A stretch of 64,000 nt of DNA from an uncultured Chthonomonas sp. (GTDB taxonomy: Bacteria > Armatimonadota > Chthonomonadetes > Chthonomonadales > Chthonomonadaceae): NCBI GenBank assembly GCA_903859705.1, contig CAIONQ010000061.1, positions 1 to 64,000 on the forward strand, given 5' to 3'. The translations under genes were made by a program, and so were the position numbers. Below the pieces are notes generated by a model that did not search any database, was not told the DNA's origin, and saw only the letters and a list, made by a program, of their open reading frames with translations. Numbering within the stretch: the first letter of the stretch is position 1; the number at the start of each line of letters is the position of its first letter. Shown here one piece after another: positions 24,733 through 29,677 of the stretch.

Positions 24733-25857
24733 GTGATCAGTTCGAGGCGCCTTGCCCGTGAATGGGCCCTCAAAATCCTGTATCAGGTTGACGTAGGTAA
24801 GGTATCGCTGCAAGAGGCCAGAGATAGCGCTATGGAGCGCCTCCGGATGGAGTTTGTGCAGCGTGGATCTCGTACCGCTTCTGGTTCAACAGCAGAACTG
24901 CTGAGCATCAGCCTGGTAACTGGTGCCCTGGTTCCTCACCTTACCCAGATGCGCCCGGCAGTAGAGCGTGCGATATTGCTTTCGATAGACAGGGCCTTTG
25001 AGGCACTCCCCTATCTGCAAGAATCTTACTTCGAAACCTCCTACCGCAATAAGGTTAAGGGCTCACGCCTTCAACCTTCTCACCTGTTGCTGCCCCCATC
25101 AGAGCAGCCAGTTTATGGCAAGGATGAGGCGACTGCAGCGGGTCTTACCGGTACTGAGCGCGGCCTGTTACAGGAGTTTATGCGAACGGTATCCGAAGGG
25201 TTACCCCCAATGATGCAGCGCGAAATGCGGCGTGCTGCACGCAGCACTGCAGGTGCGGTTTATCAGGATCGGTCTGAAGGTGACTATTCAGAGGCAACCT
25301 TAATTAGCCGAAGGCGCACACTTGTTTCAGAATCTCAAGAGCGCTGGGAAAAAGTATCCCAGCAGGTTCAGAAACAGGTTGCTGAGTGGCTGCACGTAGG
25401 TAGTTTCACGGTGCGCATTATTAATGCCATGGAGCAGAATCAGACGCAGGTAGATGAAGTACTGGAAGCACTCTCTTCCGGATGGAAGCTGGAGCGCCAG
25501 GTTGCGGTAGACCGCAATATCATGCGGCTTGCCGCGATGGAAATGCTTTGCTTGCCTGAGATCCCTGCCAGTGTATCCATCAATGAAGCCGTAGAGTTAG
25601 CTAAGAAGTACAGTACCTCTGAATCTGGCCGATTTGTGAATGGCGTGCTTGGCGCGCTCGAAGCTAGAACCGGCAGCAAAGTCGGCTTGCCGGTGGCAGG
25701 TGCAGACTTACTGCCAGATTTGGATGAACTTACAGACGATTTGATTGAGCTATCCGATGGCATGGATGACTATCTGGAGGCTGAAGCAGCTGTTTCTATT
25801 GAAGAAGCGCTTGCCGCCGCACAATCAGATTCCGATCCAGATTTAGATTCCGACTAA
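24733..25857 (+). CDS. nusB: NusB-family antitermination factor with large internal insertion
   Basis: NusB binds boxA RNA with S10 (NusE) in rRNA antitermination. The first helix (SRRLAREWALKILYQVD) and the C-terminal half (AVDRNIMRLAAMEML, then SINEAVELAKKYS and GRFVNGVLGAL) are canonical. Between them about 200 residues are inserted, roughly positions 25-225, and an acidic tail (DSDPDLDSD) ends the protein, giving about 374 residues against the usual 130-160. The inserted part is helical and charged and matches nothing I recognise. GTG 24733 is chosen because AAGGAG lies 6 nt upstream. folD follows. Confidence 0.87.
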   Translation: MISSRRLAREWALKILYQVDVGKVSLQEARDSAMERLRMEFVQRGSRTASGSTAELLSISLVTGALVPHLTQMRPAVERAILLSIDRAFEALPYLQESYFETSYRNKVKGSRLQPSHLLLPPSEQPVYGKDEATAAGLTGTERGLLQEFMRTVSEGLPPMMQREMRRAARSTAGAVYQDRSEGDYSEATLISRRRTLVSESQERWEKVSQQVQKQVAEWLHVGSFTVRIINAMEQNQTQVDEVLEALSSGWKLERQVAVDRNIMRLAAMEMLCLPEIPASVSINEAVELAKKYSTSESGRFVNGVLGALEARTGSKVGLPVAGADLLPDLDELTDDLIELSDGMDDYLEAEAAVSIEEALAAAQSDSDPDLDSD

Positions 25858-26841: not shown

Positions 26842-27462
26842 TTAGCTGCCTTTTTTAATTGCATCTGCCAGGGCATCTGCAAACTGCTGAAGCAGCCCGC
26901 GGGCCCTGGCTCCTACAGTTGTGGGATGTAGTGGTATCCACGCATCGCATGTGTAAATAGGTTTACGGGTTGCAAGGGCTTTTAGTGCTAGCCCTGTTTT
27001 GTCTCTTGCCATCGGGTACGGATCGCCGCCTGGAGCCTGGCACCAGTGCACAACAATCACATCTCCCTCCACCCCCTGAACCAGGCTCAGGCTAAATGCC
27101 GGTTTGTCATCGTGCTTCAGGGTAACCATATTTAATGGGCTGATGCGGCCATCACTATCTGCAATGTATTTTTGAGGGGCGCGAAGGCCATTGATCGTTT
27201 GAATTTGAGCAAAATCCACATGAACAGGGTCTTGATTTCCATTGTGGTACTCAAACGAAATCTGGCGGGGGTAATCGCGCTGATTATCAGCCGGAGGCGG
27301 ATCACCAGGCGAAACCTTCCAATCGCCGATCTGTGTTGGAGGGGCGATAAACGGCGTGCTTCGCGAAACTAATTTGCCGGATGCATACAGGCCGCCTTCC
27401 AATATAAGAAGCACGGCAAGAAGCAGCGCTATCTGGCGACCCAGCGGTGTAATTTGACGCAT
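26842..27462 (-). CDS. EpsI-like exosortase-associated protein
   Basis: A 206-residue protein with one N-terminal signal or anchor helix (QIALLLAVLLILEGGLYASG) and an extracytoplasmic domain typical of the EpsI/exosortase C-terminal-type partner: IGDWKVSPG near the start, then VHWCQAPGGDPY. EpsI-like proteins accompany exosortases in exopolysaccharide-linked protein sorting; their biochemical role is unresolved. Its ATG lies inside the last 34 nt of the exosortase gene with GAGG upstream, so the two are translationally coupled. It converges on folD with abutting stops. Confidence 0.85.
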   Translation of the reverse strand: MRQITPLGRQIALLLAVLLILEGGLYASGKLVSRSTPFIAPPTQIGDWKVSPGDPPPADNQRDYPRQISFEYHNGNQDPVHVDFAQIQTINGLRAPQKYIADSDGRISPLNMVTLKHDDKPAFSLSLVQGVEGDVIVVHWCQAPGGDPYPMARDKTGLALKALATRKPIYTCDAWIPLHPTTVGARARGLLQQFADALADAIKKGS

Positions 27463-28514
27463 TTAAGTCCTCGTGCAATCAGGAAACAGCCAACAGAACC
27501 GATAATCGGCAGAAAGAACCGTGAAATCCCTTCCATGAATATGGCAAGATCTCGATCACTTGCCGCAACAGAGCACAGAAATACAAGGCGCAAGCCCGTT
27601 AGCACCACCAGCCACACCAGCGAGCCTGCCACAACAATCATCTTAGGTGCCGGATGCTTCATACGTACCAGCGATAGATAGCCAACCAGCAGCACCATAC
27701 ACAGCACAATTTCAGAGACACCCAGGCCGGCTTTTTCGGCAAACAGCCGGTACTCAACCCCTTTGGACGTGATTTTAAGGGGCTCACCTTCCAACGGGAT
27801 CTCAGCCTGGACACCCTGATTCGTCATGGCATGCTGCGCAAAACTAAGCACAGAAGGTTGGATTTTATCTTGCAGGGCATCCTGTACTACGCCTGGCATT
27901 GGAATCATTACAAACAGCATTAACAGAGGGTAGATGGCTGCCTGAATTACATACCATCCATGTCTGTACGCGATAATACCGGGCACCGTAAGTGCAAAGC
28001 CAAGCCCCAGCAACGTTGCATCACGAAACCAGAATGCAGGGATATCCACCAGGATTGCCAGGATCAGCAGCATAGACGACCGTGGATCAAGAACAGGCTT
28101 TTCGGTAATCAAAAACTGGAGTACCGTTTTATCCCGCTCTCCCAGCTTCTTTTCCTTAACCCGTGTTCGGCGCTCGTACCGAAGGTACTTTCGGATTGGG
28201 GGAACTTCCGGCAGGATGAGCTTATACCGGGCAAACCAGCACCAAATGAGCGAAATGGGCAGAACAAACACAGCATATGCCTGCATAGACCCATTCAGCA
28301 TCCAACGCCGATACCATATCTGGTAAGCAGGTGCAAATACCAGAACAAGCAGGCCAAGTACAATAATCCACTCAAGACGCAACTCTGGATTGTTGCTCAG
28401 GCGGTCGTAACGGATCTTGGCGAACTGCCACTCAGATACGAGTTGGTTCAGATCGACTTCGGCACGCGGCTTTTTGCGCCTCGAGGCCGTGTTAGAGGCG
28501 GGTGTGTTGGTCAT
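27429..28514 (-). CDS. Exosortase-like membrane protein lacking the catalytic Cys and His
   Basis: A 361-residue polytopic protein with about eight hydrophobic segments and a basic cytoplasmic N-terminus. Topology and the terminal region match exosortase/archaeosortase enzymes, which cleave PEP-CTERM-type sorting signals using Cys, Arg and His. The segment that normally reads EACSGLRS is EKAGLGVSE here, with no Cys; the Arg segment survives as LTGLRLVFL; the later HxxxG-like site is FMEGISRFF without His. It may be an inactive homologue or use another chemistry. The EpsI-like partner overlaps its 3' end. No PEP-CTERM protein was seen in the window. Confidence 0.75.
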   Translation of the reverse strand: MTNTPASNTASRRKKPRAEVDLNQLVSEWQFAKIRYDRLSNNPELRLEWIIVLGLLVLVFAPAYQIWYRRWMLNGSMQAYAVFVLPISLIWCWFARYKLILPEVPPIRKYLRYERRTRVKEKKLGERDKTVLQFLITEKPVLDPRSSMLLILAILVDIPAFWFRDATLLGLGFALTVPGIIAYRHGWYVIQAAIYPLLMLFVMIPMPGVVQDALQDKIQPSVLSFAQHAMTNQGVQAEIPLEGEPLKITSKGVEYRLFAEKAGLGVSEIVLCMVLLVGYLSLVRMKHPAPKMIVVAGSLVWLVVLTGLRLVFLCSVAASDRDLAIFMEGISRFFLPIIGSVGCFLIARGLKCVKLHRWVAR

Positions 28515-29258: not shown

Positions 29259-29337
29259 ACAGAACAACCTCCCCTTTCGCGTAGTTACTGCCGCTGCCAA
29301 CTGCAATCGGCACTTTCCGTGTGTGTAAAGCTTACTT

Positions 29338-29374
29338 AAATAAAAACCGCCCTGTGCGTGTGTGCACAGAGCGG
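29338..29374 (-). terminator. Intrinsic terminator of the structured RNA
   Basis: Minus-strand stem CCGC.CTGTGC / GCACAG.GCGG with one internal mismatch and a 6-nt loop, followed by TTTTTATTT. Confidence 0.85.
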
Positions 29375-29642
29375 CGTTAATTCACTGTTCGAGAGCAGAC
29401 AGTCCGAGAGCATCTATCCGCATGCAAGAATACGGAGCAGCGCAAATTGCGCCTCTGGCTACAGCGGCCACTGAGCGGCGTTGCGGTCATCGTTACTTCT
29501 CGCAGAAGCAACGGTCCGGCGCCAGATCCGTTTATCTGATAAGTGCAGCACATAAGTACCGACAGACTCCAGACGCTGCAAGTTGCAGCCGCTACCTTTT
29601 CTGCCCAAGCATTTGCACAGCGGAATCACCCTGCCTGCAATT
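29338..29642 (-). ncRNA. Structured non-coding RNA of about 300 nt, class unknown
   Basis: A transcription unit without a credible gene: a consensus promoter at one end and an intrinsic terminator at the other. The RNA ends pair: GCAGGCAG (29631-29638) with CTGTCTGC (29395-29402), then TCCGC/TGCAA (29613-29624) with TTGCA/GCGGA (29417-29427). Inside are hairpins such as GCTGCAAC/TTGCAGC and CGTTGCTTCT/AGAAGTAACG. I found no RNase P, tmRNA, SRP or plain 6S signatures. It could be an independent small RNA or a regulated leader of the HNH gene 80 nt further on. Confidence 0.6.
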
Positions 29643-29648
29643 GGCGCA

Positions 29649-29677
29649 ATTATAGCAACAATTATTTAGTGTGTCAA
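29649..29677 (-). promoter_or_regulatory. Consensus sigma-70 promoter for the structured RNA
   Basis: Minus strand: TTGACA (29672-29677) and TATAAT (29649-29654) with a 17-bp spacer, all at consensus. The predicted start is about 29642. Confidence 0.88.

Follow-up and report, generated by a model that had tools for sequence, protein, structure and literature searches.

In Escherichia coli, termination at an intrinsic terminator fell from ~90% to <10% when a stop codon 28 bp ahead of it was shifted to 5 bp; the effect of stop position required translation and vanished beyond ~27 nt, and repression of termination was abolished when there was no translation (PMC4824070). Ribosomes also block the terminator of the pyr leader, and the pyrBI leader uses such coupling physiologically (PMC5021804). 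The leaders described here lie ahead of an HNH endonuclease gene in the phylum Armatimonadota. Since they have that stop geometry built in, the element is read as what is probably a translation-coupled transcription attenuator of the pyrBI type, the mechanism being deduced from sequence and from these precedents.

The locus lies in the window, the 64,000-nucleotide stretch of an uncultured Chthonomonas sp. (Armatimonadota) contig that was analysed (Table 1). A first-pass annotation had reported a perfect TTGACA-17-TATAAT promoter followed by an intrinsic terminator, and both are confirmed. The promoter, on the minus strand, matches the consensus at 12/12 positions with a 17-nt spacer and is the sole site scoring above 10/12 within 5 kb; the terminator follows at a distance of ~270 nt. 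It is clear that both elements are real and far above chance. The start of the leader transcript was placed ~7 nt past the −10 box, and the HNH gene starts 87 nt past the terminator stem.

Table 1. Features of the leader and of the HNH gene in the window.
Feature	Position	Strand	Basis
−35 box, TTGACA	29677-29672	minus	consensus match
−10 box, TATAAT, with TG ahead of it	29654-29649	minus	consensus match
Leader transcript, ~297 nt if terminated	29346-29642	minus	deduced from promoter and terminator
Leader frame, 58 codons from ATG (inner ATG: 37 codons), peptide end LRCSVFLHADRCSRTVCSRTVN	29553-29377	minus	by position
Intrinsic terminator (putative attenuator), 12 pairs, T-rich tail TTTTTATTT	29375-29346	minus	
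HNH ribosome-binding site AAAGGGGAGG, strong	29268-29277	minus	sequence
HNH endonuclease gene, 178 aa	28722-29258	minus	PF14279, PF01844

An orthologue of the HNH gene was found in 37 of the 41 relatives and in 135/151 genomes sampled from the phylum Armatimonadota, as one copy per genome. Most of the ~80 Armatimonadota regions that were read have the same promoter-leader-terminator layout ahead of it. Of the 69 leaders whose terminator was scored, 56 have a promoter with 0-2 mismatches, which is perfect in 23, against an average of 3.75 mismatches in shuffled regions; the Fimbriimonadia have a clear terminator and a promoter that is not clear. Nearly all of the 20 genomes compared have different flanking genes while the unit itself is kept, which ties the leader to the HNH gene. 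The end of the terminator stem is 21-130 nt (median 54) from the HNH start, a gap that shrinks to just 21-35 nt in several genomes, and a consensus scan of this gap gave no promoter with ≤2 mismatches (0/69), no better than in shuffled sequence. Because there is no intervening promoter and the gaps can be so short, transcription of the HNH gene very probably depends on read-through of the terminator. The earlier suggestion that the leader might regulate the gene behind it is thus well supported, the unit being linked to an HNH gene without other promoter across the phylum. A promoter-terminator scan of ~15 loci with HNH homologues, from Chloroflexota, Cyanobacteria, Bacteroidota, Kapaibacteria and Actinomycetota, found no comparable unit.

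The HNH protein family itself, whose members start VLVLNxDYEPLNVC, is widespread in Chloroflexota, Cyanobacteria and Bacteroidota, and the protein has distant HNH-domain similarity to IscB and PtuB. An IscB with its omega RNA was considered and rejected; the match reached 66 bits against a cut-off of 175 and covered the HNH domain only, and no HEARO match lies nearby. Adjoining the HNH gene in the window are an exosortase gene (EpsH-type, PF09721) and an overlapping downstream gene with no Pfam match (together 26842-28514, minus strand); among the genomes compared, the downstream neighbour is common only to the sister species. Elsewhere in the window a plus-strand gene (24736-25857) encodes a 373-aa protein in which NusB carries a long extension, the match to NusB being limited to residues 221-308.

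Judged from the pattern of substitutions, what is conserved in the leader is a short protein-coding frame and not its primary sequence. In 20 independent genome pairs 259 of 495 substitutions (0.523) fall at third codon positions; the null, in which substitutions were randomly redistributed and the best-matching frame was chosen in the identical blind manner, gave 0.387 (sd 0.018, maximum 0.432). Peptide similarity over the same pairs was 2639, compared to 1533 (sd 102) for the null. Values of pN/pS were 0.14 for the pair G021/G029, 0.19 for both G006/G011 and G033/G103, and 0.25 for G013/G015. The family frame is under protein-level selection, and the statement in the first-pass annotation that there is no gene inside the transcript was wrong; the window has a 58-codon frame there, the equivalent of which in relatives is selected as protein.

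The leader peptides have ~35-90 residues. Their N-termini vary, and what they share is a C-terminal part with the motif LRxLxDSFxHxHxxH and variants of it. The motif, whose pattern was compiled by hand, varies strongly among families: LxDSFxHLHxLHH or LADSFEHVHLQ in Chthonomonadales, SLRxLEDGxCxxxHxxH in two other families, QQDxHWRHHRFGHVMR in one genus, RHRHALYH in another family and WRDTII in Fimbriimonadia. No motif is recognisable in ~24 regions, and ribosome-binding sites are weak in many of the leader frames. In 41 genomes, strong matches to a profile of the common form (E 1e-6 to 1e-10) were confined to sites immediately ahead of HNH genes, the next-best match being at E 0.019; because the matched genomes contributed to the profile, this shows specificity and not sensitivity. 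A search of the leader peptides against Pfam and NCBIfam returned nothing.

Some members have features of their own. In the Fimbriimonadia leaders L202, L204, L205, L212, L213 and L214 the form is WxDTII, often preceded by PP (e.g. WPPSWRDTIIR), and PP would be a natural site for ribosome slowing; where measured, WxDTII is ~35-40 nt ahead of the terminator, and a near-consensus promoter was not found at these loci. Leader L036, from genome G004, has a second terminator-like hairpin, GCGCGAGCCGTTCTATAGGACGGTTGGCGCTTTTT, within the leader frame, ~200 nt ahead of the HNH start; two genomes of the same genus (G013 and G015) have a differently paired hairpin at the corresponding position, a difference that resembles compensatory change.

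The position of the leader stop is unusual. With frames picked by the peptide motif, 42/52 leaders had their stop 0-4 nt short of the terminator stem, within it or past it (median 1 nt). As a control, 57 long genes with a terminator at the same loci had a median gap of 26 nt, and just 2/57 ended within 4 nt of the stem. The Fisher test of this contrast gives p = 4e-18, a value that is too small because related genomes are not independent; the contrast still holds across families. Furthermore, whatever the position of the stop, the Asp codon of the motif is in most cases 45-67 nt upstream of the stem: the motif is 10-27 codons away from the stop, and its spacing to the terminator is less variable.

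The following mechanism would fit this arrangement. The near-consensus promoter would start a short leader transcript carrying a frame that ends at, or runs into, the intrinsic terminator. Should RNA polymerase arrive there with no ribosome close to the frame's end, the hairpin would form and an RNA of ~200-330 nt would be released; a ribosome close behind would cover the 5' arm of the hairpin, which would then not form, and polymerase could read into the HNH gene. The peptide motif, encoded ~45-67 nt upstream of the stem, probably exerts its effect in the exit tunnel by holding the ribosome. The conservation at the peptide level suggests, speculatively, that it is the nascent chain by which the ribosome is held, in the manner of TnaC. 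In agreement with a pyrBI-type attenuator, the frame reaches the terminator, the consensus scan gives the HNH gene no other promoter, and there is no excess of antiterminator pairing (see below). A more specific form, in which a phylum-wide arrest peptide responds to a cellular signal by stalling the ribosome at a fairly constant spacing from the terminator and so switches on an orphan HNH nuclease conserved in most Armatimonadota, is doubtful; the conserved C-terminal motif it calls for is found in the family and is not recognisable in the window copy.

The window copy needs to be considered separately. Its frame was assigned by position and not by sequence similarity: its TAA stop abuts the terminator stem with a gap of 0, and a frame as long that ends ≤4 nt from the stem arose in 41/5000 shuffles (p = 0.008). 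The family profile does not recognise the peptide motif in it, its codon usage carries no gene-like signal (−0.20 bits per codon, compared to +0.25 for genes), and there is no clear peptide similarity to the sister species of the genus. In view of these three results the window copy may be strongly diverged or decayed. It is even conceivable, if somewhat unlikely, that it has lost its leader peptide through indels and that the remaining promoter and terminator simply lower expression of the HNH gene; the residues ALLRILA, encoded in another frame and followed by GCATGC, resemble a shifted remnant, but a frame of 58 codons that still stops exactly at the terminator argues the other way. The claim for the family is independent of the window copy.

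Selection on a coding frame is also what would be seen if the leader were a separate small-protein gene with its own promoter and terminator, with the HNH gene being leakily co-transcribed; it would then be the peptide, and not the position of the ribosome, that is selected. The very strong, conserved promoter would suit such a gene, as would the His-rich C-terminus of many members. However, the stop abuts or enters the terminator, unlike that of ordinary genes, the HNH gene would be left with no promoter of its own, and strong profile matches in 41 genomes lie before HNH genes only. The peptide also evolves very fast, with only ~10-25 C-terminal residues alike in most families. We consider a separate small-protein gene unlikely.

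The histidines, such as HLHHLHH in many of the Chthonomonadales peptides, recall instead a classical attenuator of the trp/his type, in which stalling at particular codons would switch between antiterminator and terminator hairpins. In one genus an 8-bp complement between the frame and the terminator, CGGACACG/CGTGTCCG, is identical in 8 genomes. Over 63 leaders, however, complementarity between frame and terminator is not above that of shuffled sequence (mean z −0.01), and several families have no His codons. With complementarity at the level of shuffles a switching antiterminator is therefore not supported, as would be expected for a pyrBI-type attenuator, and control of the trp/his type is very unlikely here.

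Finally, the leader could have been, as the first-pass annotation proposed, an independent structured non-coding RNA. Its failure to recognise any RNase P, tmRNA, SRP or 6S signature proved correct: no Rfam family matches the window at the gathering threshold, and a permissive search of the region to E 10 returned chance-level matches only. Both 6S RNA and RNase P RNA were rejected as identities; the genuine 6S RNA of this genome is on contig C80 and its RNase P RNA on contig C163. Beside the strong promoter and terminator, the stability of the predicted fold might seem to favour a structured RNA, since the window leader has a z of about −2.3 to −2.5 relative to shuffles and 56 leaders have a mean z of −2.54. 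Leaving out the terminator reduces these to −1.1 and −1.06, respectively, so that the excess is mainly because of the terminator; the residual mean of −1.06 would still speak for some structure. The pairing of the two ends that had been described is present in the predicted fold of the window leader (37 long-range pairs) and almost wholly lost in that of the sister species, which has 4. Folding in sliding windows for a conserved hairpin inside the leader gave a consistent signal at the terminator only. An alignment of 8 genomes from one genus gave a covariation term of +0.11, essentially no support for the compensatory changes that the annotation had put forward as a check, and a DNA/BLAST search for the leader in 41 relatives, the same genus included, found no homologous sequence. 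With no conservation of primary sequence, no consistent structure apart from the terminator, negligible covariation, and a conservation at the codon level that both explains what is shared and contradicts this reading, an independent structured RNA is highly improbable.

What appeared to be an unknown RNA thus becomes a family of unannotated leader peptides, linked to a single gene and found across a little-studied phylum. A literature search found no report of an HNH leader peptide, of a nuclease under nascent-chain control, or of small RNAs in Armatimonadota. Should the proposed control hold, the signal sensed by the leader would tell when cells want the HNH nuclease, which would give a handle on its function. 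The distance from stop to terminator is also a simple signature by which translation-coupled attenuators could be found in genomes for which there are no transcript data.

Several known systems share parts of this arrangement. Like 6S RNA (RF00013), the leader would give an RNA of ~180-300 nt whose ends are paired in the predicted fold, whereas the window leader has no match in Rfam. The trp and his attenuators also have a leader peptide, sometimes His-rich, and a terminator before the gene; they differ in that the Armatimonadota leader has neither a supported antiterminator nor universal regulatory codons, and its target is not biosynthetic. With TnaC, SecM and ErmBL it shares a short leader peptide, a conserved C-terminal stretch near the stop and putative control of a downstream gene; in the Armatimonadota leader, by contrast, the control point would be an intrinsic terminator, where stalling is putative, and a variable stretch of 10-27 codons separates the motif from the stop. 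In pyrBI/PyrL of E. coli the leader frame likewise reaches an intrinsic terminator, close translation suppresses termination and an alternative antiterminator hairpin is not needed (PMC4824070, PMC5021804). UTP-dependent pausing is a trait of pyrBI; what sets the Armatimonadota leader apart is its conserved peptide C-terminus, its near-consensus promoter and its target, an HNH nuclease.
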